Part shown: piece after piece, positions 4,301 to 40,689 of the stretch
Position numbering within the stretch: the stretch's first letter is position 1
Layout: each line of letters starts with the position of its first letter
Origin: Dinochytrium kinnereticum
Taxonomy: Eukaryota; Chytridiomycota; Chytridiomycetes; Chytridiales; Chytridiaceae
DNA: 42,194 bases
Assembly (NCBI GenBank): GCA_027604005.1
Contig: JADGJT010000173.1
Coordinates: 4,088-46,281, forward strand
Direction: 5' to 3'
Notes under the pieces: model-generated
What the model was told of the DNA's origin: nothing
Databases searched by the model: none
The model's input: the letters and a program-made list of their open reading frames with translations, nothing else
Translations under genes and position numbers: made by a program

Positions 4301-7300
4301 GGACCGTCGAGTTCTTCCTTGAGCGAACAGAGAGTCGATGCACTTCGGTGTTGCAGTCGATTAATAACCGTAGTAACTTGATCGAAGGGGCTACAAGGGA
4401 CATGATCCTCGAGTTATCGAAAGGGGTTCCAATGCCTTTGACTCAGGATTTGAAACTCTCTTACGAGAGCGTGTATTATCACTTCAACTTTCAAAACTTT
4501 GAGGCGCTCGTCCAGTGCACAAAGGGTACAGTCGATCTTCTTCGATCAAGACTCGGAAATTACACGAGCAACCAGTACGGGAAATCTGGGACGCAACGGC
4601 CTTTTTTCAAGGCCGAGCTTGTTCTTCTCATTCCTAACGTCGTGCTGCAACCAAAGTTAGAGGATATTCAGGGAGCACTGAATAGAGCTGCTAGCATGGT
4701 TGTTGAGGTTTCAAAGAAATTGACTTTGAATTGGAAGGTTTTCCTCAACTCTCCGGAGGACCATGCAACAGCTCACTACCCTGAAGACACGTCTCAAGTC
4801 GCCAACAACAAGGACGTGATGAAAGTTTTGGTCATGCTGAGCTCAACTGTTAATTCGATGAAAAAGGACGTTGAGCTTCATCGAGAGCAGTTCGCAAAGT
4901 TTGATTTCTTGTGGAAGGATGACAAGAATGAGACGATTCAGAATTTCCTGAAGAACAATCCTACCATCGGTGATTTCGAGCAGGAGATCAATCGGTATGA
5001 GTCAATTGAGAAAGAGATTTCGGAGATTCCCCTCACGACTCAAATTGGGTTGCTTCTCATTTCGTCCGAGCCGTTGAAGCTGGCCCTTATCTCTGAGACT
5101 AAGGATTGGAAGCAGCAGTACGGGTTGAACTTGAACCGTAAGGTTAAGCTTGACATGGAACAGCTTATCGAGTATATGGATAATAAGACTGTCAGGCTAA
5201 GTCGAAAGATTTCCGACATCGATGATTTGAGGCTCGCCGTTCAAACCCTAAGTGAGATCCGAGAGACCGAGGTTGATATAGACATGAAGGTTCAGCCGAT
5301 TGAAGAAGCCTACCTCTTGTTAACCAAACACAACGTCTCCGTAACTAAAGAGGAAACTGAAATGGTCGACTCGTTACGGTACAGTTGGAAGAAACTGAAG
5401 CAACTGGTTATTGAAGTCCAAACGCATCTCAGCAAGATTCAGCCAGTCTTCAAGGCAGATCTCATCAACGCTGTTCAGAAATTTGCTCAGGATGTTAAGG
5501 ATTTCACTGTCGAGTACACTGAGAACGGGCCTATGGTTGGGAGCATCCCTCCAAAGACAGCCTCGGAGCGTCTCAACGTCTTTCAGCGAGCGTTTGATGA
5601 ACTGAATCGCAAGTGGGAGACATACTCAGCGGGTGAGGAGCTTTTCTCACTTCCAGTGACTCCGTTCCCAACACTCGTGAGGGTGAAGAAGGAGCTAAGG
5701 CTCTTGCAAAACCTATACTCGCTCTATAATGACGTTCTTGAGAAAAGAGCGAGTTATAATGAAACGCTTTGGGCCGATTTGAATTTGGAACGCATCAACA
5801 ACGATATGATGGATTTCCAGAACAAAATCAAGAAATTGCCAAAAGCTATTAAAGACTGGGACGCGTTCTTGGAATTGAAGAAGATTGTAGACGATCTTAC
5901 TGGAAAAGTGCCGTTGTTGGAGATGGCGAGCAACAAGGCAATGCAAACCCGTCACTGGGACTCTATCATGAACATCACATCAACTCAATTCAACCTCGAC
6001 CCCGAGATGTTCTACCTCCGAAACCTGCTTGACGCCCCACTTGTAGAGCATCGTGAGGATATTGAAGACATCTGTACCGCTGCTGTGAAGGAAGCCGATA
6101 TAGAAGTGAAGTTGAAGCAGACTGTTGCAGAGTGGGAGGACAAATCTTTCACACTTGCTGGGTTTAAGACGAGAGGAAACCTGATCTTGAAACCTAGCTC
6201 TACTTCTGAGATCATCTCTCAGATGGAGGATTCGTTGATGACACTGGCCTCACTCATGTCCAACCGATACAACGCGCCATTTAAGCAGGAGATTCAAACA
6301 TGGGTTCACAACCTTTCTACGGCGTCTGAGGTTATCGAAAACTGGCTTGCTGTGCAAAATCTTTGGATCTATCTTGAGGCTGTGTTTGTTGGAGGTGATA
6401 TCGCAAAGCAAATGCCAAAGGAGGCCAAACGTTTCAGCAATATTGATAAAAGTTGGTGCAAGATCATGGGGTTGGCGAATGAACACCCAAATGTAATTCA
6501 ATGTTGCGTTTTGGATGAGACCATTGCGAATCTTTTGCCGCATCTCACTGAACAGCTCGAGCTTTGCCAGAAGTCGTTGTCTGGGTACTTGGAGTCAAAG
6601 CGAGCCATTTTCCCTCGGTTCTACTTCGTATCTGACCCGGCGCTTCTTGAAATTCTTGGGCAGGCTTCGGACTCTCACACGATTCAGGCACATCTCAAAT
6701 CTGTGTTTGATAACGTCAGCAGTGTGGCGTTCCATGAGAAAGAATACGACAAGATCCTAGCCATGGAATCTGCTGAAGGTGAACGAGTGGCTTTGAGCAA
6801 ACCTATGCTTGCGACTGGAAACGTTGAAGCCTGGCTTGGAACCTTGCTGACCTCGATGCAAGCCTCTATCAACGACATTGTTCGTGAAGCAGCTTCGAGG
6901 ATGAATGATATGCCGCTCCAAAAGTTTTTGGATGAGTACCCCGCCCAGATTGGGTTGCTCTGCCTTCAGATTCAGTGGACGATGTTGTCCGAGGAGGCTT
7001 TAACAAACTCCAAGTCTGATAAGAAGAAGATGGCGGCGACAAACCAGAAGATCACGGAGATCTTAAACAGTCTGATTGAGGTCACCACCAGGGATCTCAC
7101 CAAGATGGATCGAACAAAGTACGAGACGTTCATCACTATTCAAGTGCATCACCGTGATGTGTTCGAGAAGCTCTATAAGGCTCACGTTAAGAGCCCGGAA
7201 GATTTTGAGTGGTTGAAGCAGGCTAGATTTTACTGGCACGAAACTAAAGATTGCTGTATCGTGTCCATCACCAACTTTGACTTCCGCTACCAATGCGAGT

Positions 7301-10300
7301 ACCTTGGCTGCACGGACCGTCTTGTCATTACTCCCCTCACCGACCGATGCTACATTACCCTTGCGCAAGCCCTCGGAATGTCACTGGGAGGCTCTCCCGC
7401 TGGCCCCGCTGGAACAGGCAAAACAGAATCCGTAAAAGATTTGGGTAAAAACTTAGCCAAGTGGGTCGTAGTCTTCAACTGTTCAGATCAAATGGATTAC
7501 CGTGGATTGGGCCGTATCTTCAAAGGTCTTGCTCAGTCTGGTTGCTGGGGATGTTTCGATGAGTTTAACAGAATTGAGCTTCCCGTCTTGTCTGTCGCTG
7601 CCCAACAGATTGGATGTGTCTTCTCCGCTCGAAAGGAGAGGAAGTCGAGCTTTATCTTCACGGATGGAGATACTGTTGATTTGAACCCTGAGGTCGGAAT
7701 GTTTATTACGATGAACCCCGGTTATGCTGGTCGTGTCGAGCTCCCCGAGAACCTAAAGGTTCATTTCCGTTACGTCGCAATGATGGTTCCCGATCGACAG
7801 ATTATCATTCGTGTTAAGCTTGCCGGTTGTGGTTTCATCAGTAACTTAATTCTGGCGAAAAAGTTCTTTGTGCTATACCGTCTTTGCGAGGAGCAGCTGT
7901 CAAAACAGGTTCACTACGACTTCGGGTTAAGGAACATCTTGTCCGTGCTGAGAACTTGTGGATCCGTTAAGCGTGCTAGCCCAGAAGACAGTGAAAACCT
8001 CATCATTATGCGTGTGTTGCGTGACATGAATCTATCAAAGCTTGTTGATGAAGATGAGGCGCTGTTCTTGTCCCTCGTGAACGATCTATTCCCTGGGCTT
8101 ACGGCAAAGAAAGCTTCATACCCCAACATTGAGTCTGCCGTTGATCAGCAGTTGTCCGAAGCAAATTTGATCAATCACCCACCGTGGACGCTTAAGGTTA
8201 TCCAACTTTATGAAACCGCTAGGGTGCGGCACGGTATCATGGTGTTGGGACCTACTGGAACCGGGAAAACCAAGTGTATCAATTCGCTCCTAAAGGCTAT
8301 GACAGTGTGTGGAGATCCCCACAAAGAGCTTCGAATGAACCCTAAAGCCATAACGGACTACCAAATGTTCGGTCGGCTCGATGTCGCTACAAACGACTGG
8401 ACAGATGGTATCTTCTCCAGTTTGTGGAGGAAGACCTTAAAGAAGAAGGGTGAGACCGTATGGATTGTGCTAGACGGTCCTGTCGATGCTGTCTGGATTG
8501 AGAACCTTAACTCTGTGCTCGACGACAATAAGTGCCTGACCCTTGCCAATGGTGATCGTATTCCCATGTCAAGCTCTTGCAAACTAACGTTCGAGGTTCA
8601 CTCCCTCCGTAACGCGTCACCTGCAACTGTGTCGCGGTGTGGTATGATTTATATCGGTATCACGGCTCTCACATGGGACATTGTATTGCAATCTTGGTTC
8701 AAGAGCCGTCTTCCTCAAGAGGTAGCTATCTTAGAGCCCTTGTTCAACAGCAGCTTTGGTATCGCAAATCAGTTCCTCATGCTTGAGCTTCACCCCAAGA
8801 TGATAATCGCAAAGGTCACTTACGTGTCAAATGTGTGTACTTTGCTCAGCGGGCTCATTCCAAAAGCTGAGGCGAACAAGTCACAGATCTCCGCAGACTA
8901 TATGGAGAGGCTCTACATTTTCGCAATGTTCTGGAGTTTGGGTGCTCTTCTTGAGCTCGATGAAAGGAAAAAGCTTCAGGCATTCCTTTTGGAGAAGGCT
9001 CCTGATTTGAAATACCCACCACTAGATCCTGCCTCCCAGGATACTTTCTATGAGTACTTTGTTTCGGAGACTGGACAGTGGATGCACTGGAAAGAGCGTG
9101 TACCCAGCTGGGCGTACCCTCAGGATCATACTCCAGAATTCTCCAGCATCATTATTCCTACAGTGGACAACGTCCGTACCGAATTCCTAATGGAGACCGT
9201 GATCAAGCAGCAGCGATCGGTTCTTCTTATAGGTGAGCCTGGTACTGCAAAAACGGTGACGATTCGAAAGTACCTTGCAAAATTGACTCCGGAGACCCAC
9301 CTCTATAAGAACCTTTCGTTCTCCAGTGCTACCACCCCAATGATTTTCCAGAGGACGGTTGAATCTTACCTTGACAAGCGAATGGGATCGACTTATGGTC
9401 CTCCAGCTGGAAAGAAGATGATTCTTTTCATCGATGATATCAATATGCCTGAGATCAACGAATGGGGTGACCAGGTCACTGGTGAAATTGTTAGACAGCT
9501 TATGGAGTGGCAAGGATTCTATTCACTTGACCGACCTGGTAAGCAAAAATTGCTTTACTCAATATAGCAGAATGTTTCTAACACATATTTATATTAAGGT
9601 GACTGGACCGGTATCGTTGATCTGCAATACCTCGCTGCTATGATGCACCCCGGAGGAGGCCGTAACGACATTCCCAGTCGCCTAAAACGTCAGTTTATTG
9701 TCCTGAATTGTACCATCCCATCAGATGTCTCTGTAGACAAGATTTTCGGCACGATGTTAGAGGGGCATTTCTCGGCGGCTAGGAAATTTACTGAGGATGT
9801 GAGCGCGCTTGCCGCGAGATTGCCCGGAATTACCCGAAGGCTGTGGCAGATGACAAAGAATAAGATGTTGCCGACACCCGCAAAGTTCCACTACATTTTC
9901 AACCTTCGTGATCTCAGTCGTATCGTTGAAGGAATGTTGAACTCTCACGCCGAAGAGATTAGCTCGGTCAAGCTATTGCTTAATTTGTGGGAGCATGAGT
10001 GTTCTCGTGTCATTCCGGATCGATTTATTACCTCTGAAGACGTTGACTGGTTTAATAAGACCCTTACTAATATCGTCACGAAAGAAATAGGAGAAGATTA
10101 CGGCCCTATTGTGGCTTCTAAAAGTCTATTCGTAGACTTCCTGAGAGAACCACCTGAGGTAGAAGATCCTGACGTGGAAATCGACTTGGAAGCAATAAAA
10201 GTCTACGAAAAAGTTCCCAGCTTTGATGTGCTACGTGAGCGGCTGATGGATTATATGAAGCAGTACAACGAAGCAATTCGCGGATCTAAGATGGACTTGG

Positions 10301-13300
10301 TGCTATTCGAAGACGCTATGAAGCATATTGTGCGAGTGTCAAGAATAATCAGAACTCCTCGTGGAAACGCCTTGCTTGTCGGTGTCGGTGGATCAGGAAA
10401 GCAGTCTTTGACGAAACTGGCCGCATTTATTGCCAAGAGCCAAGTCTTCCAGATTGCGATCTCGAAAAACTATGGTGTTTCTAACCTCATGGAAGACTTG
10501 AAATTTATGTACAAGATCGCCGGAGCTAATGGAAAGTCGCTTACGTTCATCTTTACCGATAATGAGGTCAAGGAAGAAGGTTTCTTGGGATACATTAACA
10601 ATATTCTTACTTCCGGTGAAATCACCAACCTCTTCCCGAAGGACGAGATAATTTCGATATCGTCAGACCTTCGCCCTGCCCTAAAGAAGGCGCGACCAAC
10701 AGTAATGGACACTATAGAAAACTTATGGCAGTTCTTCATCGACCGAGTGAAGGCAAACCTTCATGTTGTGCTCTGCTTCTCACCCGTTGGTGATAAATTC
10801 CGAAACCGGTCATTAAAGTTCCCTGGCCTCATCAGTGGTTGTACTATGGATTGGTTTACTCGCTGGCCCAATGAGGCTCTTCGAGCTGTAGCTGAGAAAT
10901 TTGTTGGTGAGATGGATATTGTAGGCAGTGAGGCTACAAAGAAAGAAGTAGTCTACCATATGGCATTTGTTCACGACTTAGTGACAGAGGCTTGCGACAA
11001 TTACTTCTCCCAATTCAGAAGGCGGACCCATGTCACTCCTAAGTCGTACCTCTCCTTCCTTTCCTCGTACAAAAGTCTATACAATAGCAAGAGGTCTGAG
11101 GTCGGTGGATCATCTGATCGCATGAACATGGGTCTTTCAAAACTGATCGAGGCTTCTAAATCCGTGGCGATGCTTCAAGAACAGCTTGTAGTAAAGGAAA
11201 AGGAGCTTGCTGTGGCGTCAAAGCAGGCCGATACCGTGCTCACTGAAGTGACGGCTTCTACCGCTTCCGCCGAGAAAGTGAAGGATGCTGTATACAAGGT
11301 GAAGACAAAGTCTGAGGCTATCGCAAACACGATCAAGGCAGATAAGTCTTTTGCCGAGTCTCAACTTGAGGCAGCGAAGCCTGCTCTGGAAGAAGCAACG
11401 AACGCCCTTAACTCGATTCAGGCGTCGCACATTTCAACTGTTCGTAAGCTTGCCAAACCACCCCACTTGATTATGAGGATTATGGACGGTGTGCTTTTGC
11501 TTCAGAAGAGAAGAGTCGATGCAGTAACTCAAGATCCGGATAAGCCTTGCGCAAAGCCATCGTGGGGTGAAGCTCTTCGACTAATGTCTGCGTCTGATTT
11601 CTTGACATCTCTTACGACTTTTGGGAAGGATGAGATTAATGAGGAAACCACCGAACTTTTGGAACCCTTGCTCGAGATGCCTGACTTTAACCTCGAAGGT
11701 GCTAAAAAGGTGTCCGCCGACGTGGCTGGTCTTGCTTCATGGGTAAAAGCTATGGCTTTCTACTTCTCTATCAACAAAAAGGTTATTCCCTTAAAAGCGA
11801 ACTTGATCGTGCAAGAGGCCAGGCTTCAGGTCGCCATGAACGATTTGAACAAGGCACAGCAGGCTCTTGATGAGAAGCAGGCGGAGCTTGACGACTGTAA
11901 GGAGAAATACAATTCAGTGATTGCCCAAAAGCAGGCTTTACAAGCGGATGCAGACAGCTGCAAAAGAAAAATGAATGCCGCAACAGCTCTTATTTCAGGT
12001 CTTAAAGGAGAAAAAGATCGATGGACGATTCAAAGTAAGGAGTTTGGAGAGCGAATTGGAAGACTTGTGGGAGACGTCATCTTGGCTGTTGCTTTCCTAT
12101 CCTACAGTGGTCCCTTCAATCAAACCTTCCGGTCTCAGCTTCTGAGTGATTGGAAGAAAGAACTCGTCAGAAGAAAGATTCCTCACACGGAGGATCTGGA
12201 CATCATCGGGCTTCTAGTAGATAATACCACTGTGGGAGAGTGGAATATTCAAGGTTTACCCACGGACGAGCTTTCCACACAGAATGGTATTATTGTCACT
12301 AAAGGAACGCGTTATCCTCTTTTGATTGACCCTCAGACGCAGGCGAAGGCGTGGATCAAGAACAGGGAAGGAAATAACAAGCTTCAAGTTACAAGCTTGT
12401 CGAGCAAATACTTCCGTCAGCACGTCGATGATTGCGTCAGCCAGGGCCGACCTCTCTTGATTGAAGATGTAGAAGAAGCTCTAGACCCTACTTTGGATAA
12501 TATCCTTGAAAAAAACTTAATCAAAGCTGGTCGGTCTTTCAAGGTTGTCTTCGGAGATAAGGAGATTGATTTCTGTGAGGGATTCAGTCTGTTTATTACA
12601 ACCAAACTTCCGAACCCGAACTACAACCCCGAAATTTACGCAAAATGCAGTATTATCGATTTCACTGTCACTCACAAAGGTCTAGAAGAGCAGCTCCTCG
12701 GTCGTGTCATCATGAGAGAAAAGCAAGAGCTCGAAACCGAGAGGTCAAAGCTTATGGAGGAAGTTAACTCTAATAAGAGGAAGATGAAGCAGCTTGAAGA
12801 CAACTTACTTGAGAGATTAACATCGACAAAAGGATCCCTCGTCGATGATGAATCCCTTATCGAGGTACTGGCCGTTACAAAAACAACGGCAGAGGAAGTG
12901 AATGAGAAGCTAGTTGTGGCCGCCGACACGCAGAAGAAGATCAGTATCGCCCGAGAGGAGTATAGACCAGTCGCTAGCCGTGGAAGTATTATTTATTTCC
13001 TTATCGCTGAGATGAGTATGGTGAACCCCATGTACCAAACCTCTCTGAAGCAGTTCCTGGGGCTATTTGACGAGAGCATGGAAAAGGGCGCACCTTCACC
13101 AATTCCGAGCAAGCGCATTCAGAACATTATCGAATACTGCACGTTCCGCGCATTTTCGTACATCACTCGAGGCTTGTACGAAGTCCATAAGGTCCTTTTC
13201 GTGCTTCTTCTGGCCCTTAAGATCGATATCTCTACTAACAAGGTGACACATGAAGAGTTCCGATGCTTTATTAAGGGAGGTGCTGCGCTTGATATCAATG

Positions 13301-15534
13301 CAGTTGTTAAAAAGCCATTCAACTGGATTCCCGACATGACTTGGTTGAATTTAGTCGCATTAAGCAAGATGCCCGGATTTAATGACTTACTAAATCAAGT
13401 CGGGAAGAACGAGAAGGCTTGGAAATCTTGGTACGAAAAGGATGGTCCCGAGAATGAGATGCTTCCTAGCGGATATCAAAACTCTCTAGACGCCTTCCGT
13501 CGACTCTTGCTAATTCGATCATGGTGTCTTGATCGAACGATCATGATGGCGAAACAGTATATCGCGAACTCCATGACTCAGAGGTATGCCGAGTCGCAGA
13601 TTTTAGACTTAGACGCTCTCCTTATGGAATCTGACAACCGAACGCCAATGATCTGTCTTCTTTCAACTGGATCTGACCCCTCGTCTGATATTGAGAATCT
13701 ATCTAAGAAGTATAAGATTGATATTAAAGCAATTTCCATGGGTCAAGGACAGGAAGTTCATGCGCGAAAGCTGCTTCAAGCTTTTATGACAAACGGAGGT
13801 TGGGCACTTCTTCAAAACTGTCATCTTGGCTTGCCATTTATGGACGAACTTTTGACTACAATCCTTGAGACCGAGAATATTCACGAAAAGTTCCGCCTGT
13901 GGATAACTACAGATGTCAGTTTAAAGTTCCCTATAACATTCCTGCAAATGGCCATTAAGTTCACCAACGAGCCGCCTCAGGGTATCAAAGCTGGTTTAAA
14001 GCGAACCTACGCTTGGTTTACACAGGATATGCTTGATATGAGCACACGGCCACAATACAAGCCCTTACTATACGGGTTGGCATTCCTTCACTCCGTCGTA
14101 CAGGAGCGCAGGAAGTTCGGTCCCTTGGGATGGAATATTCCTTACGAGTTTAACCAATCCGACTTGGCTGCTTCCGTTCAGTTTGTTCAGAACCACGTTG
14201 ACGAACTTGCTCCAAAGGCCTCAATTTCGTGGCAGACTGCACGCTATATGTTTTGCGAGGTACACTACGGAGGTAGAGTAACAGATGACTTCGATAGGTA
14301 ATTCAAAAACTTTGAAATCCTTTACTAACTTGAATTAGGCGACTATTAAACACCTATGGCAAGGTGTGGTTTGGAGACCATATGTTCCTGGACAATTTTA
14401 GCTTCTTTAAAGGCTACGTTATTCCTCACTTGAAAAGCGTAGAAGAATACCGCCAATCTATCGAGTCACTACCTCTCGTTGATACTCCGGATGTGTTTGG
14501 ATTACATCCCAATGCCGATATCTCCAGTCAAACTAAAGATTCCCAGAGAATGCTTGGTAATATAGTTGTTAGCTCATATCTTCCCTATTTCTAACTTCTG
14601 TTCTTTATAGATACCATTATGTCTATTCAGCCGAAAGACAGCAACACTGGTGGAGGTGAAACCAGAGAAGACACTGTGAAGCGCATGGCTAATGATCTGT
14701 TGAGCAAGCTCCCAGAAGACTTTGACAAAAACAAGGCAAAGGCCGCTATCAATAAGCAAGGTGGAATGAAGCCCCTCAATATCTTCTTGGGTCAGGAAAT
14801 TGATCGAATGCAAATCGTTATTGGCATCGTCCGTTCAACGCTTAACGATCTCAAGTTGGCGATAGATGGTACTATTATTGTGAGTGCTCAACTACAGGAG
14901 GCTCTTGACGCTCTTTACGATGCCCGAGTTCCAAACGCGTGGGTGAAGGTTTCCTGGCAGAGCGCAACACTTGGTCTTTGGTACTCTGAGTTATTGAGCA
15001 GAATCGCTCAGTTCCACACATGGCTCTACGATGGACGGCCGCTTGTTTTCTGGCTCTCCGGATTCTTCAATCCTCAAGGCTTCCTTACAGCCATCCGACA
15101 GGAAATTACTCGTACACATAATGGATGGGCTTTGGATAATGTCAAGGTACGGCTTTACTATTTTGAAATAGTCTTTGACTTTCTATCTTCAGTTGGCTCC
15201 TGAGGTGATGAAACAGATGAAAGAAGATATTACTGCGCCTCCAGCTGAAGGTGTATATATTCACGGTCTCTTTATTGAGGGTGCTGGGTGGGACAGGAAG
15301 AATATTCGCCTGACGGAATCTCAACCCAAAGTGATTCATCAATCCATGCCAGTCGTGCATGTATCAGCGACAAATTCTACGGATGACGGTGACCCTCGAA
15401 TGTACAGATGCCCCGTCTACCGAAGGCCGAGAAGAACTGATCAGAACTATATCTTCGATATTGATCTGAAGACCACTGCCAATCCTGACTACTGGATTTT
15501 GAGGGGCATCGCCCTTCTGTGTGCTACGAGTTAA
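1341..15534 (+). CDS. Axonemal outer-arm dynein heavy chain, gamma type (DNAH5/DNAH8 class)
   Basis: Minus-end-directed motor subunit of the outer dynein arm that drives flagellar beating. Eleven exons: 1341-1634, 1712-1966, 2035-2248, 2340-2605, 2678-2796, 2846-3050, 3103-9538, 9599-14297, 14339-14556, 14611-15146, 15193-15534, giving 4527 aa, normal for the family. The start sits in a good context (AAAATGGCT). Order: N-terminal tail (~1-1400), linker, AAA1 Walker A GPAGTGKT (~1885) with CFDEFNR; AAA2 GPTGTGKT (~2167); AAA3 GEPGTAKT (~2495); AAA4 GVGGSGKQ (~2858); stalk with microtubule-binding domain (~3216-3317, starting [17 protein letters not shown]); AAA5, AAA6, C-terminal domain ending [13 protein letters not shown]. 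The AAA1 block ([37 protein letters not shown]) follows the DNAH5/8 pattern rather than the DNAH9/11/17 one. All four P-loops look intact. Two giant exons carry 82% of the coding sequence. Confidence 0.97.
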
Positions 15535-16074: not shown

Positions 16075-19000
16075 ATGACTGCCAAATCACAGCGCGGATT
16101 GCCCAAACACAATCAGAATGCTTTTGGACAAGTCCTTTCTGAAAGGAATTTCGTTGTCCGAACATCAAAACAATTTTCACCAATGGCGACCTTTGGCCGT
16201 ATCATTGTCATTAGACGGACAGGGGAGGATGGAAAGTAAGTAGCAACCTTGTGAAGCGATGCTAACCACCGCTTAAGCTCATTTCCTCTGACCAGGACGG
16301 AATGCACGTTTGGAAGGTAATCCTCGTAATGCAGTCAAAATACTTATTTCCTTAGGGCACTTAGTTGCACCATTAGAGTGCGTCTGCCCGAGGTTTCCCG
16401 TAATCACTGCATCATTAGCGTTAAGGAAGATAACATTGTAAGCTCTTACTTTATATTCTTTCTATATCTCCAACTTCAACAAGATTTATTTGACGGACTT
16501 GAGCAACAACGGAACTCTACTGAATGGATCGGAGATTCCGAGAAATGAACCAGTGGCTCTAAGTAACGGAGATGTGTTCTCCGTCCTCACGAGGACTTTT
16601 CGATTTGAGTATTCGGATACCCCCCCTGGAAAGCTCCTTGCTGCAGCGTTGCCAGGTAATCCTGGAATTGACGGTCACATGGAGCCTTTGATGCACGCAA
16701 AATCCATGAGTGGAGTGGAGGCCATAACTCCAAAGAAGCGACCAAATTGTATACCGGATGATCAGTTATCTAAGCCGCAAGATGCCTGCACTAGAACAGT
16801 GGTGGAAAAGGAGGCCGAAGAAGAGGGAGAGAAGGTCGAGCTGCATGCGAACTCTTGCGAAATGGATTTAAAAAACGATGATATTCAACCAGTTGAAAGA
16901 GTGGAAGTGGATACCTCGGAGAAAAAGCGAAGAAAACTTGAGTTTCTCTCAAAGACTTCTCCTAGAAAGAAAAAGGAGAGGGGCTCGGATAGTGCATTCT
17001 GGACACCTCTTGCTTCGCGAGACCGGACTATTACAAGTGGAGGTGAATATATCCGGAACAATTAAGATCTAATATGGTGAAGAACAACTGATGCCAACTA
17101 CAGCGAATTCTCCGTTCAAGCCTTTGACTGTCTTAGTTGCTGGTGCCGTGGAGAACGACACATCGCGGCAGGATGAAGCAGAGGTACGCAGCTTACAGCG
17201 ATCCAGCCATAACTTTTCCCACTAGATAGCCGAAAACGCGGCCCAGGAAAGAGTCATTTTGGAAAGTGATCCAGATATCTCTTTAATTTCCAACGCAGTT
17301 GAGGCCTTAGATAAGGTTTCAGAAAATCGAAATGATACTACAGACGCTACTATAGTTTTGACTAACAAGGCATTAACTCATGATGGAAACATAGTAGAAA
17401 AGGCCATTCATGAAGAAGAGCTTCTGTCTCCTGCAAAAGAGCAAGGTGTAACTGAATCACGCACGCCTATAGAGCTGCAGTCGCCAGTTTTAGGTAGAAA
17501 GACCGTAACATTTGCGCCTCCGGTAATCTACCTGCTAAACGGCTGTTTCATGCTCACTCCTTCTCAGTTAAGCCCAGAGATTTTTGCAAAGGACCAACCG
17601 CCATCAACCCCAATTAAACGTGGCGCTGCCCTCCCTATGACGTCCACCCCGACTGGACTTATCCGATCGGCACTACGGAAAGGAAGAAGCTCACATTCTA
17701 CCACCGCTACTAAAAATAACTCACCGGCAACTAAGAACGTTGGTGGCGCTCCGATGACACCGTTAGGTCTTTCAGTGCCTCTAGATCTTTTACGCCAGGT
17801 CAAAAAGCCTACATCGATGCACACCAACTCCCCGAAGAATTCCCTCACTCAGGTCCTAATGAATTCACTAAAATCCAAGTCCGTGGAACGCGTCCAGAAC
17901 TTCTACTGTAGTTCTGCGGCAAATTCCCCTGTCCGCCTTCCCAGTCAGCTGCCAAGGCCTAAAAATGTAAGTATTAATCTTTGTCGTCACATCTATCGTA
18001 ACCTATCTGTAAGGCTCCGTACTCCGGAACTTTGTCGTTTTTGGCGAAAATGAAGAAAGAGGCCACTAGTCTGCCTCAGACATCTACTAAGGGCGAGGAA
18101 GAGTCTTTGTCTGTGAAAACTTCCGACCAGCCGATAGCTTTGCAAAAAGACGAGGATTTAGGAATGGCTGTAGTTGATACGTCACTAGATCTCACGGCCT
18201 TAGATAATAATGAGCTCGCAATTATAGATACTTCGTTAGACCTGGTCTCCTTAGATAACACAGAGAGGAGCATTAGGCTTTCAGGATTAGGTCTTCAGGA
18301 AGGCTTCGACGCAGGTCCCACAAATGTTATTTCAGAAAAAGTATACTGAGCTATCTTCTGATCAGATATCTTACGTTTTTTCTTAAAACTTTATTAGCCG
18401 TCACCCGCTCATGAAAAAAAAATTATAGGCGCGGTCGAAACTGAACCGATTGGTGCTGATCTGATTCGATTCTCGCCGTCGCCAAAGAAAGCGTCAATAA
18501 CTGAGAGCTCATCCACTCGAGACATGGTTCAAAGCAATTCATTTTATTCTCGCTCCACTGTTAGTTGGAAGTCTCATAGCTTATCTACTCTACCTTCTGC
18601 TCAGAGTAAAGTGCCTAATCCTTCTGGAATTGAGGTTATGGATTCGAAAAACCAGCACCCCAAACTTAATTCTATTGTGCTGGAAGATTCTGTTGAGAAT
18701 AGTATCGAGGCTTTCAAAGGAGATGGGGCCGATTCACCCCATAAACAATCACGAACTATCGAGGAAGTTGGCCCCATTCGTAGAACGTCATCCAGGCGAG
18801 CGTCTCTACCCGTCATTACGAAGACTCCCACAAAGAGGTTAAGGGCGAGGAGGCATACTGAATTCAAGGATATTGATGTTCCTGTTTCTGTTGCTGGGTC
18901 GGTTGTAGTCAAGCCGACTCTTGGTAATGTTTTAGAATCGGCTTCAGCTGAGCGGGTTACAGAGACAAGTAACTTAGTGGCAAGCGAATCCGTTGCTCAT

Positions 19001-22000
19001 GAAGACATTTCTTTGGCAGCTGAGGAGGCCGAAGCCACGGAAATTGAAGATGGAGCCGTAAGTTCTAACGCTACTTGTTTGGTCCCCGCCTTTAACGTGG
19101 GCGATGCGGCTGATTTGGAGGGGGCCGATAAGTGCAAGGGTGCTTCAGCTATTAGCTCCGATCCTTTAAATTATGGGGAATCTCTCCATGATATTGATAC
19201 CAAAATAACTGCAAATCCGGATGAAAATGCATTGGAGGACGTGAATGCGCTCGACGGTGAGGAGACTGTAGACTCTCCTGAAGCAGATCAAGCGGACTCA
19301 GATATGAACATGATTAGTACGGTTCCTCCTGAAGCTATAGATGCAGCAGGTAGCCCAACCATTACTGACTCTAAAGCGGCGATAGACATTGTCAACACTG
19401 GTGAGATTGATGTTTTTATTTTTTTGTTCGATGTTGACCCACGTTTATTGACTTGCTCTTTCATTAACCCAAGTTGACAAGGTGCTACCCAATGACTCTA
19501 ACAATTCGCTTACAAACGCTGACGAACTTGAATCGACGAGCTCTAGTCTGCCTAAAGCCTTTGCGGACGAACAGCAACCTGACGTTCAAGCTACGGCTGT
19601 TATGGTCATGTTAAGTTGCGAAAGCTCGGTTATACAAGGTAGTTTATATTCGAGATTATTGGTTTCCAGTTGTCGTATAAACCATCCTCATTTTTACTTT
19701 TAAAAGATGATACTGAAGTCGAGGCTCTCGATACACATCAACGAGAGACCAACAGGATTAATGATGAATCTACACCAGAAAGTCTAGAGAGTAAGGAGCT
19801 GAGTCTTATGATTTTCTATTTATCGCCTCTATTAAAGGGCAAGCAACCCCTCTCTCGGAAACCAAAAAGTCGGCTACAAAGTCTGGACGCAAATCCTCAA
19901 TATATAAGAAAGCCACAATCGAAAGGCCTGCCACAAGGTCTCGGTCACGTCAGAGTACCGCCTCGAGTCCCCGTTCTCCACCCCCCAACACTTCCGAAAC
20001 GTCTTTAAGGCTTCCTGGTAAGTTATACTTACTTCTATAAGATTTCATGGGTGTTTTGGTACTAATATTTTAAAAGAGAACCAGTTATCCGCCCCTGACC
20101 CTGTCCCCTCCCAAACGCAATGGAACTCTTCCAACTCCCCTTTCCGACCATCAGCATCATCTGGGGACGACAGTGACGTTCCTTTATCCGAGCGACGAAG
20201 AAGAAGAAGAACCAGATTGAGCGATGTCACCAGTGGTCTCTGTCTCAAACACAGTGATATTTCGCCTGTCGAAGCCCTTGCTTTTGTTGCGCCGATTGAG
20301 GCGAATCCAATTGGACTTAATTGTGAAGATGGAACACCAAAGAGGATGTCGCTGGCGGTTGATAAGGCTTTTGACTCTTCTGAAAAGGCTAACGAGGACG
20401 ATAAGGAGAATCGTGTAGATGTTGAGGTTGTTGCGAAGACTGATGATAGTGGGGGCGAAATGGAAGAGGAGAGTGCGATAGATAAAGTTCTTGACATGCC
20501 CGTAAAACGTATCGATTTGGACAAGGTGATTGAACAGATAGGCGACGAGGATATTGACCTTTCTGACGTTGAGGAGCAAATACCTGTGACTGCTGCTCAT
20601 GACACGATTGCCGTCCCTAATGAGGGCGAGTCGACTACCATCCCTGCTGCGGACGAGCCTCCTGCCCTCCCTGTTCATGAGCAGCCTACTGCTCTTCCTT
20701 CTGAAGAGGAGTCTATCACCCTATTTACTACAGAGGGACCGCCCACCCTTCCTGCGCATGAGGAACCTGATACCCTCGCTAATGAGATGGAGCCTGCTAC
20801 CCTCATTGCGGAGGAAGATGCTTTCTCTGCTCTAAAGCAGTCTGCAACCCCATCTATTCAGGAAGAACCTACTGCTCCCGCACCCAGATCAACGCAGCCA
20901 TCACCGGCCTCCAAGCCTCGACGAGGAGTGAGAAAAGGAAAGGCAAAGTCCACAATTGAAAGCCCTCCTCAAGACCCTATACCTGAGACCGTCGAATCAG
21001 TAGAGCAAGCCGTCGATCATGTAGAGTCCGAGGCGGCAATGGAAGGAACACCTGTGCCCCCCGATCCCGCTGCGGATGTATTTGCTGAGGCGGAGCCTAA
21101 GCTTGGGAGGGGAGAGCGTAAGGGCCGAGGAGTTAGTACTGGTATAGAGGATCCCGTTCCTCCGACCACTGAGCTCAGTTCAACCATTGACGATGGCGCG
21201 CCTGCTCAGCCAAGTGAGAGGGAAGTCGAGACGCCGCTTGTTGAAACTGAAGGTCAGACTGGTAAGCTTCGCAGAGGCGGAAGGAGAGGAATAGCTGAAA
21301 CACATGCTTCTGCCAAAGAAGAAGTTGCCACTACGATGGAGGGTGTAGAGGAAGCGTCCCTGGAAACAGGCCTTGAAGTGGAAGAGGTGACTGGCTTTAT
21401 GGAGCTCGAGGAAGATTCGGGAAAACTTCGACGAGGGGGACGCAGACTTAAAGGTGGGGCTGTTTTAAAAGAAATCGTGGCTGTGAAGACACGCAGGGGT
21501 GGGAAAAGGCCTAAGATTGTTATTGAGAAGGAAGCTGCTGAACTTTCCGAGGAGACACTTGTCGCGCTTCCTGTGGAGGAGGCAGATGCCAGCTCGACAG
21601 CGGGGAATGAGGCGATTGTAGAAGAGACTATGCCTTATACCGTTGTTCATGAGGCTCCTAAACCTCAAAGAGGTGGAAGGACGGCTCAGCCTGCAATCGA
21701 GGAGTCTCCTGCTCCCATAGAGGAGGTGTCCGTCCCTCTCGCCACTGAGGCTACCCTTTCGACTGCTCTCTCCGCTCTAACAGAGGACGAGACACCGCAA
21801 GCTGATGAAGTATTAGAGGAAACACTAGTCCTTCACGAGGAACAAAAACCTCGAAGGAATGGGAGGAAGACGAAAGCTGCTGATGAGGTTGCGAATGAGG
21901 CCCCAGTTACTTCTGTAAGCGTGATTCCTAGGGACGAGACGCCGATGGCAGACGACGTCCCGGAGCCTATAGTTGATGCACCGAAACCTCGGAGAGGTGG

Positions 22001-24266
22001 GAGGAGGGCGAAGGGTGTTGTTGAGATTGCGGAAGAGATACCGGCCACCTCAGCCATGCAGGAGTCCCATGATTCTACCACCCGCCAAGTAACCGACGAT
22101 GAAACCCCCATGGTTAAAGAGCCTGTGCCTGTTGCTCATGAAGCGCCAAAACTCCGGAGGGGCGCGAGAAAGGCGAAAGGTGTTGTTGCTGAAGAGGTTT
22201 CCGTAACTGTTGTGGACACTCCCACCGCTGCCTCTCTTTTAACGACTCCCAGCGTCATGACGGAGGGTAAGACGTCCACTGTCGAAGCTCCAACAGTACC
22301 TGATGTGCCTAAATCACGGAGAGGCGGGAGGAGAGCGAAACTTACTGTCGAGGAGGCCCCTAAACATGTGGAGGAGACAAGCGTTATAGATGCTCCCGTT
22401 TCAACGGCTACTGGCCCGATTTTGGAGGATGAGACGCCCACTGTCCAAACCTTACCAGAACCCGTTACGGAGCCTCCCCAATCACGGAGGAGTGGAAGGA
22501 AAGCGAAGCCTGCTGCCAATGAGTCCTCTACACATATAGAGGAGACAGGCGTTAGAGAGCCTCCCCTTCCTACCCCCACTAGCACGATGTTGGAGGATGA
22601 GACCCCCATAGAAGAGGATGCACCTGTTATTGAGGCTCCGAAACCTCGGAGAGGCGGGCGGAAGGCGAAGGGGGCTACCATTGACGAAGTTGCTGAGCCT
22701 GTCAAGGACACGTCCGTTCCGGAAGCGGCGCTTTCAACGGCTGTCAGCTCGATGACAGAAGATGACATCCCGAATGTTGAAACATTAACGGAGCCTGTCG
22801 TTGAGGCGCCTAAACCTCGGAGAGGCGGGAGGAAGGCGAAGGGTGTTGCTGTTGACGAGGTTGCTGAGCCTGTGAAGGATGAGCTCGTTCCGGAAGCGGC
22901 GCTTTCAACGGCCGTCAGTTCGATGACGGAAGATGAAATCCCAACGGCGCCTAAACCTCGTAGAGGCGGGAGGAAGGCAAAGGGTCTTGTTGTTGACGAG
23001 GTTGCTGAGCCTGTAAAGGATGCGCCCGTTCCGGAAGCGGCACCTTCAACGGCCGTTAGCTCGATGACGGAAGATAACATCCTGAATGTTGAAATCTTAC
23101 CGGAAACTGTTGCAGAAGCTCCTAAACCTCTAAGAGGTAGGAGGAAGGCTAAAGGGGTTGTTTCTGAGGAGTCCGCCCAACCCAGTGAGGAGACGCATAC
23201 CCCTCCTGCTGCTGTTTCAACTTCTACTAGCGCGACAGCAGAGGCTGAGACCCTGATCGCTGAGGCTGTTTCAGACGACGTGCCTAAACCTCGGAGAGGT
23301 GGGAGAAAAACCAAACTCCCCGCTGCTGTTGAACCGCTTAACGATACCCTTGAGAAGGCGGCGGAGCCGTTACCCAACCGTGCGGCTGTTGCGGCTGAAC
23401 CGGTTGACATTTTGGCACCGACTATGGAGACGAGACCTCGACGTGGAGGAAGGAAGAATCAAATTGAGGGTGTTGATGCTGAGGAATCCGTAACGACCGT
23501 CGCGGGTGACGACAACACGACCACCACTGCTGGAGTTGACACGACCGACACGGTGAAGCTTCGGAGAGGTGGACGAGGCAAGACTAAGCTTGCTGCATTG
23601 GAGGAGGCGACGGAGGTCTCTGCTGTGGGTGAGATGTCTGGGAAAGATGAGTTGGAGGAGATGGCTAAGATGGCTTTGACTGTTCAGGCCATGAAGTTTA
23701 TTTCTGCATTTGAGGGGAAGGGTAGTGCGAGCGGGGGTGGGGGTAAGACCAAGAGAGGCGGACGAAGGAGAGTGGATGATGAGGAGGGGACGGAGGACGC
23801 GAGGGGAGGGAAAAAAGTAAAGGGGGAAGATGTTGTAAAGGTATCTGTTGAAGTGCCTGTTGAGATGCAGCGTGGTGGTGGTGGTGGACGGAAAGGAAAA
23901 CGGAAAGCAGGCGTCGACGTTCCGACCACAACCACCACGACCACTATCCTACCGTCATCGACAGAAGAAGAATCCACCGTAAGACCTGATTCCACCCCTA
24001 CGACACCGGGGCTTCAGAGCTCCCCTGCGATGGATCATCCAAAGAAGCTAAGGCCTATAAGGTTGAATTTGACGCCGATTCGGTTAAAGCTTGTGCATCA
24101 TGGGCGGGGGAAGGAGGGGGAAGGTAGAAGGGAGGTTTTGATCGTTGGTGTGCCGGGTGGAGGGGAGGAGAAGAGGGCGAAGAAAGGAAAGAAGGGTGTG
24201 GAGGAGGGGGAGGAGGGGGAGGGGGGTGAACATGTAAAGAGGGGGAAGAGGGCTAGAAGGTTGTAA
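16075..24266 (+). CDS. Ki-67-like protein: FHA domain, PP1-docking motif, basic repeats, Leu/Arg-rich tail
   Basis: Exons 16075-16235, 16296-16316 (21 nt), 16356-16437, 16484-17042, 17104-17183, 17226-17522, 17568-17966, 18014-18340, 18398-19400, 19474-19638, 19707-19790, 19838-20017, 20077-24266: 2515 aa, or 2530 if the 45-nt intron 17523-17567 is retained. FHA domain ~39-135: GR (60-61), SRNH (75-78), NNGT (96-99), ending RTFRFEYSD; it matches Ki-67's FHA in order, spacing and end. PP1-docking KTVTF is at 393-397, followed by LSPEIF and PPSTPIKRG, the Ki-67/Repo-Man pattern. Then come Ser/Pro sites, ~20 R-G-G-R basic motifs in acidic spacers, and a Leu/Arg-rich basic end (LRPIRLNLTPIRLKL). 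In animals Ki-67 coats mitotic chromosomes and recruits PP1. The start could also be ATG 16183 (MATFGRI), which aligns with the Ki-67 N-terminus. Function in this organism is inferred. Confidence 0.8.
17496..17624 (+). other. KiR-type PP1-docking motif with embedded 45-nt intron (17523-17567)
   Basis: Codons read R-KTVTF-APP up to 17522. Next is a 45-nt segment starting GTAATC, holding CTAAAC and ending TTCTCAG, then LSPEIF ... PPSTPIKRG. The 45 nt have no stop and divide by three, so an unspliced reading stays open. Removing them brings the two halves of the motif to the spacing known from Ki-67/Repo-Man (RVxF, three residues, LxPE[IL]F, ..., NTPLKRG). Splice-site quality, branch-like CTAAAC and motif spacing agree that it is an intron. 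Confidence 0.8.
20913..23905 (+). repeat. About 20 copies of a basic R-R-G-G-R motif with acidic spacers (coding)
   Basis: Within the last exon of the Ki-67-like gene a core of the form K-P-R-R-G-G-R-K-A-K-G recurs about 20 times. It is spaced mostly 40-60 codons apart by stretches rich in Glu, Pro, Thr, Val and Ala, often with an SxMTEDE.P phrase. Copies degrade toward both ends (RRGVRKGK at the start, RGGGGGRKGKRK at the end). The core resembles AT-hook-like or RGG DNA/RNA-binding patches (inference). It is a different sequence from the ~120-residue vertebrate Ki-67 repeat but occupies the same place in the protein. Confidence 0.85.
22641..23123 (+). repeat. Three near-identical tandem units (171, 141, 171 bp)
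   Basis: Units start at 22641, 22812 and 22953, each opening with AAACCTCG.AGAGGCGGG. They share long near-identical blocks (VDEVAEPVKD, PEAALSTAVSSMTED). The middle unit lacks ten codons before the next KPRRGGR core. High identity at DNA level, including synonymous sites, points to recent unequal exchange inside the reading frame. Confidence 0.85.
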
Positions 24267-26105: not shown

Positions 26106-29100
26106 ATGGCCCTCTCTTACGTGGGAAAGGTAGCATCATCACTCCAGCACAACATGCACCCATTTCCATCCATCCATCCTTCTTTCTTTCTCTCCTTCCT
26201 TTCCTTTCCTTTACTTTACTTTCCTTTACTTCCTTCCTTCCCTTCCCTTCCGTTCGTCTGCTGCTGCTCTACTCTTCCGCATCATCCCCTCACCAATTTT
26301 CATTCAATAGGTCGTCTCAACCGTCGCTGACTTTTACGGCGGCATCAACCCTGCTACCCTCTCAGGCGCCATTGACATTGTTGTTGTCGAGCGAAAGGAT
26401 GGCCAGCTCCACTGCTCTCCCTTCCATGTCAGATTTGGAAAGCTCAAGCTGTTGCGGCCTATTGAGAAAAAGGTATGAAAAACTAAAGTGTTCATTCCGC
26501 CTTGTGGAGGGGTATTGGACGGCGCAAGTGGTGGGCTATGCTAGACTGACTACAATGAGGCCATACTTCTTATGCTTCTGGCGAGATAAACCTTTATATC
26601 AACTGCTCCTCTTTCCTTTATATATTTTCCATTCACCTTACACCACCCTTTGCACATGCAAATATGAATAGGTCTCTATCTCAATCAACGGCAAGTTGAC
26701 TGAATTTGAGATGAAAGTTGGGGAGGCAGGTGAAGCATTCTTTGTCGTTGAAACGGATGACCCTGTCGCTTCAGAGTACGCCACTTCCCCCATTCCTCAA
26801 CCCACTACTCCCCCAGATGAGGTAAGTGTCTTTTTTTTGTTTCAGCTTCTCTTCTTTCAACCATTCTGTAATTTAACGAATTAACCCCCCAAAATCAGCT
26901 TATTTCTGACATTTTGGATCTGGGCGATTCGATCACCCTGGCCTCTGGGAGTCCAGCGGCAAAGGCAGGTGGACTCGCGTCTCCTTCCCCTTCAGACGGC
27001 GCTATCAAAGAGGGGACAGCTCAAGCCTTCGCCCCCGCAAACCGTGCCCGATCGGCGTCTGAACGTCCTCTGTCTGATGTGTTTGATGGGTCTTTTAAGG
27101 TTGAGAGGGAGGATGAGGATGATTATCCTCTTAGCGAGACTGATGCAGAGTGAGTCCAGGCGACTAATTTGAGCGAGTGACCGTGAACCTTCGTGCCGCC
27201 TTCAATGGTCATTGGCGCTCCGGAGGGGCCGTATCGCCCTCTTTTTTGATCCTACCGTCCGAAGCGATACGCGAAGTCATTTGATCTTCCCATGCATATC
27301 GAGCGAAGCGGGATATTAGCATCTTGATCTCATCGATCTGGCGAGCGAAAGCGACCATTTTATTCTCTCTTCACCGTATACTTCGTCCCTAAACATTAAT
27401 GTTGTGTTTTTCTTCTTTCATGAAAAAGCCCCAACGCTCCGAGAGGATTTCGAACCGATATTCACGCAGAAAGGTCCCTTTATAATAGCTCTCCTGTGCC
27501 AGGGGGCTCGCCTTCCAATGAGTGGTCGTGGACGTGGGGCGGTTTGCCCGTCAAGGCTGAAGAAGCTTTAGACGCAACTCTACAACAGGATGGCGAAATT
27601 GCTGAGGGGGGAGACCCCCTTGGTTTGATCAAGGACGGCCAGGCGTCATCCACTTACCCTGTATCTCCAACCCAAGTTTCCTCTCTCTCTGCGGCGATCA
27701 AGGCGACTGCAACAGAGCGACAAGCCATCACAACAAACCCTTTAACTGTCACTGAAAAAGTTGACAGTTTCCTCGCGTCACTTCCTGAGGATTCCTCCCC
27801 CTTAGCAAAAATCCCTAAAGTCAATGTCTCATCCGATGACAACCCCGTCAAACCCATGACTGTCGAACTAAGCCTGTGCGGCAAATCCGCCGTCCTACCT
27901 TTTCTTAACCAAGGCAAAGAGGTCATGAAAACCGTCACCCCAGAACAGCGTCAACACGTCGAAACCCAGTTCACGAACTTCCTCATCACTTTTGACTCGT
28001 TCAGCATTGATCCTTTGATCCTTCAGCACCCAGATTTGATTGTCAGGATTGACGGGATGGGGTATTATGATTGGAACGCGGCCTCGGTCTTGTTGGTATC
28101 TGTTTGGGCTTTTGGCAGGATTCCGTCTCCATTAGGGAAGGTACCGGATCGTGGGGTTACTGGACCTTCTTTGGAACCGAAAAAGTACAGCAGTTTCAGT
28201 GAGGGGTTGAGACAATGGTGGTCTCGTGGTGCTGGTAGCTCTGCTGATGGGATTGACTCGTTGTCAACGTCACCGACCAAACCACCTGGGTTGAGTACTT
28301 CACCAACTCTTTCTTCGGTGACTCCTGCTGCCCCCAGTGCCGAGAAAAAATTGGCGGCACCGCCGGTTGAACAGGTTAAACCGAGGAGACGACAGGCGTT
28401 TGCCAAGACTTTGAGGCTGACTTCAGATCAGTTGAAGAAGTTAGATTTGAGGAAGGGGGTCAATACGGTGACCTTTTCGGTGACGAGTACTTTACAGGGG
28501 ACTGCTAGTTGTACGAGTAAGATCTTTTTTTGGGATTATGATGTGAAGGTTGTTATTTCAGATGTTGATGGCACGATTACAAAGTTAGTTTTGTTTCTTT
28601 CATTTATTGTTGTTTTATTTATTTGTTATTTTTTTTGCTCTTTTCATTCCTCCTCTTTTTTTTTTTTTAAAAAATATCTTTAACTGCGTTCCTTTGTTTA
28701 TTCCTCCCTTGCTCCCTACCCAATCATCTTACCTCCCCCCACTCTTCAGATCCGACGCTCTGGGCCATCTGTTTACCATGGTGGGCCGAGACTGGACGCA
28801 CTCTGGTGTGGCATCACTTTACACGAATATTCGGAAAAATGGATACCAAATTCTTTATTTGACCTCGAGAGCGATCGGACAGTATTCCACCACGAGGGAT
28901 TACTTGATGAAGATTGAACAGAATTCTTGTCAGTTGCCTGACGGACCGGTGATCATGAGCCCTGATCGGTTGTTTACAGCTTTGCATAGGTATGTTGTGG
29001 GTTGTGTTTTGTTCTGGAATGGTTGAAGGGATGATGGTTGTTCGTCTTTGCTGTTTTTTTTTTTTCCCGAAGGGGAAAAAAAATAGCGGGGTTTCTCGAG

Positions 29101-36300: not shown

Positions 36301-37512
36301 GAAGGTATGCGATTGTCATCCCAAAAATAAACCCAGAAAACTTCTGAGACAGTCCCCTCTGCTCCAGCCAGATCTTTGCAAGAGCGCAGGCATCTTGAAA
36401 TTCGGGGCAGGACTTCATGTGGAAATTCTGGAAATTCAAATGTGACAGGAAAGTACCATCCATCAACATCGCTGTATTGTATCGCGGCGTTGCATGGAAC
36501 TCGCCCACTTCCGAAGATTCCCCATCTTGCAGAATTGATAATCGAGCGTTGCTTTTTTCGGGTGATAGACGGCTGCTAGCGAAAGCATTCTGAGAGATCG
36601 TTGGGAAGATTCGAATAGAAATGCCACGAATTGCCTTCGGCCATGAAGTTCCAGTAAGCTTTAAAATCAAAATAGGCCGTCTGATATCTCCCTGGGCATA
36701 GTCAAAAAGGAACTCGGCATTTTCAATACCCCGAGTCTTCTTTTGAAGTTCGGCAGCCAACACTGAAATGTAGTATGCCCGTTTGTGAAAATAGCGATAG
36801 TTAATGAAGTCTTTCTCAGTAAAAACATCCTTAAAGACCATTAGTACCTTTTTTTTCTTAAGGCACTTACATCTGGAATTTCAACGGCCATATCTATGTT
36901 AGCTCCGCCTGGAGTCCGAAGGAGATTGTTCAACACGTAAGACCCGAAAATAAAAACCCTCGATGGCTTTTGGAATTTGAATTTGTATTTGACATCATCC
37001 TTTGGTGCTGGCGTTGGAAATGGGATATATACCCCTTCCTCTTTTAGAGAGCTTTTGCACTCAGAAAGCTATTCAAAATCAGAAGGAATAGAAAGTTGTA
37101 AGCAAACCGAAAGCTCGTCGCGATCCTCCATAGAGTCCATTATCCCCTTTATTTTCTTGAGAAGGCGATCGATGTCTCCAGTCATGGTCCGGCTTATCCG
37201 AGTTTCCTTCAATAGCTCTGATATCTAGCAAAAAACATGAGTATAATAAATATATTATCGATGACGGACCTGCAATTTGAAAAAGTTCGAGTGAAAGCGT
37301 TCTGTGGTGTCCTTATACATGAGCATCTCCGAGTTGGTTGGTGCTTCATACGGGGCAGCATGGGATCTTTTGACGGATGGTGCAGGAATCACTGGGGAAG
37401 CATCCTGATCTTCGCCTTCATCGTAATCGCTTTCGCTTTCATCAATCGCTGACTCAAGTTTGGGCCGCTTTCCCTCCGCTTTGCCCTCCTCACCGAATTG
37501 TCTCTTAACCAT
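33362..37512 (-). CDS. UTP22: UTP22 / Nrap, U3 processome (small-subunit rRNA) protein
   Basis: Nucleolar member of the small-subunit processome that acts in 18S rRNA maturation; it carries an inactive poly(A)-polymerase-like fold. Minus-strand exons: 37512-37270, 37224-37108, 37068-36871, 36829-36214, 36110-36061, 35990-35889, 35834-35716, 35673-34110, 34020-33808, 33708-33553, 33472-33362; 1162 aa, close to human NOL6 (1146) and yeast Utp22 (1237). The N-terminus is basic then acidic (MVKRQFGEEGKAEGKRPKLE). Family blocks: VFIFGSYVLNNLLRTPGGAN then IDMAVEIPD, EKDFINYRYFHKRAYY, FFDVIIVDPSGKINL, RRLWGSKADLRRFDDG, DIYGGDVVGVTWD, and the C-terminal RLGNGLVIGVEI. Introns are very short (39, 41 and 42 bp for three of them), and intron 3 carries a TACTAAT branch site. 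Exon 5 (50 nt) is the least certain. Confidence 0.95.
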
Positions 37513-40430: not shown

Positions 40431-40689
40431 GATCCAAATAAACTCTTTGTGGGAAACCTCGCTTAGAAAGTTACTGATAAGACACTGACGGACATGTTCA
40501 AAAAGTTCGGAACGGTTACAGACACATTTGTAGTTATGTCTACAGAAGAACTAACTCCAAGATCGCGGGGCTTCGGATTTGTGACCCTTTCAAGCCAAGC
40601 AGAAAGTGCTTCAGCCATAGCAGAGCTAGACGGAAAGGAGATTGATGGTTGCCCCCTAGTAGTGAATTATTCCAAAAACAGATCCGGAT
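40431..40689 (+). pseudogene. RNA-recognition motif (RRM) with an internal stop
   Basis: Both RRM signatures are present in one frame: RNP2 LFVGNL (40443-40460) and RNP1 RGFGFVTL (about 40566-40589), followed by SAIAELDGKEIDGCPLVVNY. A TAG at 40464-40466 falls immediately after RNP2. The frame is the same as the gag-like segment, with two further stops between them (40377, 40413). Either a host RRM gene was captured by the element or the element inserted beside one. Confidence 0.75.

Follow-up and report, generated by a model that had tools for sequence, protein, structure and literature searches.

The gene studied here raises the question of whether a flagellated fungus carries a relative of the animal protein Ki-67 and, if so, to which of the known members of that family it is closest. 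The host, Dinochytrium kinnereticum, belongs to the Chytridiomycota (Chytridiales) in the NCBI taxonomy, and the window analyzed is a stretch of 42,194 nucleotides of its assembly. The initial annotation had proposed that three hallmarks of Ki-67 follow one another in a single gene, and all three were found in that order: an N-terminal FHA domain, a PP1 dock, and a long array before a basic tail. The novelty that it claimed was overstated. The deposited protein is already named "antigen identified by monoclonal antibody Ki-67 [Dinochytrium kinnereticum]" at NCBI, and Ki-67 has been recorded from Ciona, Saccoglossus, Hydra, and Trichoplax (Booth et al. 2014, PMC4032110). Homology in fungi is also published, since a 2021 paper on the fungal kinetochore protein bridgin names Ki67 as its homologue in metazoans (PMC7794384), and a 2022 review describes bridgin as conserved among other fungal phyla and present in Amoebozoa (PMC9252888). 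No published report of a KiR-type dock in fungi or of a chytrid Ki-67 was found in the literature covered, a partial collection.

The gene model was built by hand, with 12 exons at the outset and 14 after improvement (Table 1). All exons of the deposited protein (P0001, 2,441 residues) were located exactly inside the window, and an earlier version of our model, minus its exon 2 residues, equals P0001 letter for letter. Lacking exon 2, P0001 also lacks the FHA arginine, which we take, from FHA structures, to be the phosphate-binding residue. The deposited protein of Cladochytrium tenue (P0007) is without the equivalent FHA stretch too, and the short exon may have been overlooked in that model as well. 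A 21-nt form of exon 2 was dropped in favor of the 39-nt form, which restores the residues FPL and adds ~21 bits to the Ki-67 FHA match (1r21), a gain that compares queries of unequal length (83.3 bits for 107 aa with the 39-nt exon, 62.7 bits for 555 aa with the 21-nt exon). The Pfam FHA score barely differed between the two forms (62.8 bits with 21 nt and 62.9 bits with 39 nt; 53.3 bits for the deposited protein). The start at position 16075 given by the initial annotation is possible, but less likely than the ATG at 16183, because the deposited model begins at the latter and the alignment with the human Ki-67 FHA runs from residue 6 onward. Six of the 13 predicted introns have a length divisible by three.

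Table 1. Positions in the window of the predicted gene, its parts, and its neighbors
Feature	Position	Strand	Remarks
Dynein heavy chain	3151-15203		Three long ORFs (2,138, 1,553, and 194 aa); axonemal DYH2-5-8 coiled-coil family
Whole coding region	16183..24266	+	Predicted model: 14 exons, 2,454 aa, 13/13 introns GT-AG, 0 internal stops
Exons 1-7	16183-16235, 16278-16316, 16356-16437, 16484-17042, 17104-17183, 17226-17522, 17568-17966	+	Predicted
Exons 8-14	18014-18325, 18398-18526, 18605-19400, 19474-19638, 19707-19790, 19838-20017, 20077-24266	+	Predicted
FHA domain, Ki-67 type	16183..16612	+	Spliced from exons 1-4; Pfam FHA 62.9 bits, 3.9e-17
Exon 2 (39 nt)	16278..16316	+	13 residues more than the deposited protein; stretch SFPLTRTECTFGR, including the FHA arginine
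RVxF part of the dock, KTVTFAPP	17499..17522	+	Spliced model; Pfam PP1_bind
Intron within the dock (45 nt, in frame)	17523..17567	+	GTAATC...CTCAG; GT-AG; absent from deposited P0001
LSPEIF and KiR-like part of the dock	17568..17624	+	LSPEIFAKDQPPSTPIKRG; matches to PDB peptides
Mostly acidic region from dock to array, introns included	17625..21269	+	pI 4.51 (residues 430-1000) and 4.52 (residues 1000-1330)
Array of RRGGR-type basic patches on acidic background	21270..23765	+	Within the last exon, 20077-24266
Basic C-terminal tail	23682..24266	+	pI 10.14, 194 residues; includes LRPIRLNLTPIRLKL; ends in KRGKRARRL
Lipin-type gene	27496-29026		Lipin_mid and LNS2 domains
Nrap protein	33843-36841	-	Domains 1-5 over two ORFs
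PHD-finger ORF	38312-39160		Downstream
RRM ORF	40494-40877		Downstream

The N-terminal domain, read in the initial annotation as an FHA domain ending in RTFRFEY, was recognized as such by Pfam, and its best match among 177,635 distinct PDB sequences was human Ki-67 (2aff, 83.6 bits, E 9.8e-23). The next FHA chains scored far lower: 34.7 bits for 6c4u ("Forkhead-associated 1") and 33.4 bits for Rad53. In pairwise alignment with the human Ki-67 FHA, the identity was 45% over 95 aligned positions and the score 90.5 bits, vs. 32.3 bits for another FHA domain of the assembly (L001). The usual FHA arginine, serine, and NGT positions are all present in the predicted protein. NCBIfam matches were limited to unspecific FHA similarity and a weak one attributable to chance, and the Rfam scan gave no match. 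When the human Ki-67 FHA was searched against the assembly exon by exon, the best single-exon E-value (0.00133) belonged to an exon of another gene, on contig C367, and two exons of the window gene followed (0.00293 and 0.00588); the former outranks the latter because introns split the domain. That contig carries two FHA stretches (L005 and L001), at most ~2 kb apart, the first of them truncated by the contig end and followed by two in-frame stops and then a RING-like cysteine pattern. The best PDB match of L001 was Rad53 and CHFR was not among its matches; from its FHA-RING layout we presume it to be CHFR-like.

Grouping of the domain with a different FHA family, named in the initial annotation as evidence against a Ki-67 relationship, was not seen in a tree of 18 sequences that did not include NBS1, MDC1, or bridgin. 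Eight Ki-67-type FHAs, namely human Ki-67, a EukProt protein (P0012), three chytrids, and three Mortierellomycota, separated from 10 others (aLRT 88.5 / UFBoot 89), which were Rad53, two more FHAs of the assembly, and seven from P0010, P0011, P0013, and P0014. Left out were P0005 (near P0004), the assembly FHAs L002 and L004-L008, and two P0011 matches below 15 bits, and part of the P0007 FHA is missing in the deposited model. The branching order inside the eight received weak support (57.9/62 and 77.9/62).

The PP1 motif proposed by the initial annotation proved to be present, as KTVTF followed by LSPEIFAKDQPPSTPIKRG, and the 15 surplus residues between its halves in the frame used there proved to come from a 45-nt intron that had not been removed. 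In the unspliced frame, 18 residues lie between KTVTF and LSPEIF, of which 15 are encoded by the intron; a genuine insert of 15 residues was rejected, and P0001 as deposited also has the intron spliced out. Splicing raised the PP1_bind (PF15276) score from 20.8 to 30.2 bits, across the Pfam cut-off of 27, and a search of the assembly with the same family was uninformative, failing to find even the window gene, whose motif is interrupted by the intron. The intron is both stop-free and in frame, so that its retention would lengthen the dock in the resulting protein and move the two halves 15 residues apart. The spliced dock peptide (GRKTVTFAPPLSPEIFAKDQPPSTPIKRG) can be aligned gap-free with the peptides of RepoMan and Ki-67 and has the spacing of both human proteins. 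Against PDB, it matched only three sequences at E<1, RepoMan (5ioh and 5inb) and Ki-67 (5j28), all chains of PP1-complex entries; 5j28 is named as a PP1 complex in PMC8354752. The half-motif V[ST]F...L.PE occurred in six of 20,000 shuffles of the window protein.

The KiR-SLiM, its selectivity for Arg20 of PP1, and the Aurora B site were defined by Kumar et al. (2016, PMC5005033), whose Swiss-Prot search, as described there, returned the motif in Ki-67 and RepoMan only, making these its likely sole users. The strict published form, FDxxLP(P/A)N(T/S)PL(R/K)(R/K)Gx(T/S)P, was not matched by the window protein, and the dock is therefore termed KiR-like. Nor was it matched by seven of the nine relatives (six fungal proteins and P0012), the other two, both bird CDCA2 sequences, carrying it in full; a relaxed form defined in this analysis was found in all 10 (the window protein and nine relatives). 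A search of the assembly with a Mortierella dock gave the window gene as its sole match at E<=10. No FHA-less, Repo-Man-like paralogue was seen in that search, from which an intron-split copy could escape. The closest PP1 catalytic gene of the assembly (C2, 145.3-146.4 kb) has the predicted reading LLE|VRGSRPGK, with an intron placed by eye between the two parts; it would then carry the Arg20 of PP1-gamma that is selected by Ki-67 and RepoMan (PMC5005033). At the same place, another PP1-like gene (on C183) has LLQSRNK. Arginine at PP1 position 20 is common in fungal PP1, and this is hence a weak test.

Between the dock and the tail, no Pfam domain scored above the cut-off. The long repeat array of the initial annotation is evident as basic patches of the form [KR]RG[GRA][RKSP] or [KR]R[SN]GR, with 15 matches, where 300 shuffled versions averaged 0.09. 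When the pattern was relaxed a little, 17 spacings between patches could be measured, of which 13 were 41-64 residues. The array as a whole (residues 1330-2260) has a pI of 4.81 and lies in a single last exon of 4,190 nt in the predicted model; tandem DNA repeats occur within 22623-23203. As had been supposed, the array appears unrelated to the repeats of Ki-67: no Ki-67 repeat family (K167R in Pfam, presumably PF08065) matched the last exon or P0001 at E<=1, in a search run without a positive control. The tail had been described as a Leu/Arg-rich basic end, of which the basic character was confirmed and the composition is only partly apt, the final 110 residues having 9 L, 12 R, and 11 K. Leucine and arginine together make up 0.20 of the last 100 residues vs. 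0.13 of the whole protein, a modest enrichment in a comparison of composition.

Six further fungal proteins (P0002-P0007) have FHA and PP1_bind in the same order, and P0012 also has both domains. Of the six, two are from Chytridiomycota, Chytriomyces sp. MP71 (P0002) and C. tenue (P0007), and four from Mortierellomycota: Mortierella sp. GBA30, M. alpina, M. antarctica, and Gamsiella multidivaricata. Both domains exceeded the Pfam cut-offs in all six (PP1_bind 34.2-37.7 bits) and in P0012 scored 36.3 bits (FHA) and 56.3 bits (PP1_bind). Three of the six already bear a Ki-67 name, and the top PDB match was Ki-67 for each of the three relatives searched (Chytriomyces P0002, Mortierella P0003, and P0012). 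By inspection, all seven fungal proteins share the dock [KR][KT]V[ST]F[GA]P[APK]LSPE[IV]F....P[PAV][SA]TP[ILV]KRG. The dock of P0012 (FDKSLPPSTPLRKG) combines the animal leucine with the fungal PST and looks intermediate between the two forms. This protein also has a long TPL..EI..G..LR.TK array of its own, which differs from that of the chytrid.

The C-terminal halves of these proteins are less uniform. Chytriomyces resembles the window protein in its KRGR/KRGGR patches and basic end. As annotated, all four Mortierellomycota proteins are without RRGGR-type patches or a basic end (pI 4.2-4.7 in the last 200 residues), and the last 200 residues of Cladochytrium have a near-neutral net charge (+1, pI 8.4); the chromatin-binding half is therefore not found in every relative. 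Loss of the PP1 motif in related chytrids was the other observation that the initial annotation held to count against it, and the motif was present in both chytrids and all four Mortierellomycota returned by queries that themselves contained the dock. The FHA region alone had returned only P0001 (one match of 217 candidates). The second search gave 10 matches of 7,988 scored (six with both domains, two bird CDCA2 proteins that have the dock alone, and two other FHA proteins), and the third gave three of 7,992 scored, one with both domains. Because the third did not relist P0002-P0007, the searches are limited by their candidates and silent on absence from other fungi, and because the second and third queries contained the dock, fungal relatives without it would be under-reported.

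An animal source of the gene, through contamination or horizontal transfer, is scarcely credible: no supporting evidence was found, the contig also bears dynein heavy chain, lipin, and Nrap genes, and the dock, with TP[ILV]KRG and no leucine before the first P, is of a form common to the other fungal proteins. The axonemal type of the neighboring dynein is as expected, the host fungus being flagellated. Convergence, that is, an unrelated FHA protein that acquired a PP1 motif, could account for an array unlike the Ki-67 repeats, and RVxF motifs are common; it is nonetheless highly improbable, since the FHA domain and the dock each independently favor Ki-67 or RepoMan across PDB and occur together in seven fungal proteins, the dock aligns without gaps, and even its half-motif is rare in shuffled sequence. 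Homology with Ki-67, as first proposed, is strongly supported by the PDB matches of both parts and by the FHA tree.

Our best explanation, to which we assign a probability of about 0.72, is that the predicted protein belongs to the Ki-67/bridgin family and likely resides on mitotic chromatin, to which it would recruit PP1. The basic tail and patches would bind DNA or nucleosomes, the acidic stretch would be extended and disordered, and the FHA domain would read phosphothreonine on a mitotic partner. In early mitosis, kinases may shut the dock through phosphorylation at two positions, the x of RVxF and the STPIKR threonine. The former is the threonine of KTVTF, at the position of the RepoMan Aurora B site, and the latter aligns with the mitotic phosphosite T412 of RepoMan. 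At mitotic exit, loss of these phosphates would allow PP1 to dock and to dephosphorylate chromatin proteins. The place of action may be either the chromosome surface, as for Ki-67, or the kinetochore, as for bridgin.

Two narrower readings choose between these places. The protein might be a chytrid bridgin, an outer-kinetochore linker that contacts kinetochore proteins through its FHA domain and acidic region and centromeric chromatin through its basic tail; the dock would then serve kinetochore dephosphorylation rather than a chromosome coat. We consider this plausible, if somewhat short of an even chance. Among the published characters of bridgin homologues, the window protein has the N-terminal FHA and the basic C-terminus (pI 10.14), and it has the acidic middle too (PMC7794384). 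Cryptococcus neoformans bridgin likewise combines a putative PP1 site and 13 repeats with a middle part that is acidic (pI 4.65) and an end that is basic (pI 11.20). Ndc80 was found in the assembly; in exon-by-exon searches, CENP-C_C gave no match and CENP-T_C gave one match over the cut-off (30 bits) and two under it, all possibly generic histone folds. Against this reading, the dock is of the Ki-67/RepoMan type, while the site of bridgin (residues 161-164) is described only as unconventional; it also overlaps with our best explanation, location being the sole difference. Less likely, and in our view doubtful, is a strict functional orthologue of animal Ki-67, a surfactant brush that coats whole mitotic chromosomes and organizes a perichromosomal layer. 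The FHA, KiR-like dock, basic tail, and repeats in one large last exon agree with it (cf. PMC8354752), but no Ki-67 repeat family matched, in the search without a positive control, and the studied fungal relative, bridgin, sits at the kinetochore (PMC7794384). The chromosome-periphery role put forward in the initial annotation is not supported. Neither the Ki-67 FHA partner motif hNIFK_binding (PF12196) nor the HP1 chromoshadow domain (Chromo_shadow, PF01393) was found in the assembly, and the control genomes were silent for both, so these searches are uninformative.

As far as our searches show, what appears to be new is a Ki-67-type PP1 dock in fungi of two early-diverging phyla, a distribution which suggests that the dock predates animals. 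It also suggests that the combination of FHA and dock is older than the animal-fungal split, and that PP1 recruitment together with the FHA is the old, conserved job of the family, with repeats and tails turning over freely. We regard it as an evenly balanced proposition that a Ki-67 equipped with both an FHA reader and the full RVxF-KiR-type dock was present in the animal-fungal ancestor, acting as a chromosome-borne mitotic-exit phosphatase, from which Ki-67, Repo-Man, and bridgin descend, the chytrid form having stayed close and the arrays having been rebuilt independently. From its Swiss-Prot search, the 2016 structural paper took Ki-67 and RepoMan to be the likely sole users of the KiR dock (PMC5005033), and a close variant is now seen in seven fungal proteins. 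These fungal docks are deep natural variants with which to test which dock residues matter, and a chytrid offers a direct way to test how the family divides into a chromosome coat (Ki-67) and a kinetochore linker (bridgin).

Compared with the known systems, the window protein is like Ki-67 (MKI67) in its N-terminal FHA, the spacing of its dock, its basic C-terminus, and its repeats in one large exon, as in human Ki-67 (PMC8354752). It differs in having no match to the Ki-67 repeat families, a dock without the leucine and asparagine of the KiR-SLiM, and an NGT loop in its FHA at the place of NPT in the human protein. Because neither the Ki-67 repeats nor the strict KiR motif was found, we place it in the Ki-67/bridgin family and not in strict animal Ki-67. 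With Repo-Man (CDCA2), probably a duplicate of Ki-67 (PMC8354752), it shares the PP1 dock LSPE[IV]F ... TPL[RK][RK]G, but it has an FHA, which was absent from the single bird CDCA2 scanned (P0008). Bridgin (Bgi1), for which alone a kinetochore location is established, differs in its unconventional PP1 site, as compared by description rather than by sequence, and is otherwise like the window protein in being fungal and in combining an FHA, a putative PP1 site, an acidic middle with repeats, and a basic C-terminus.
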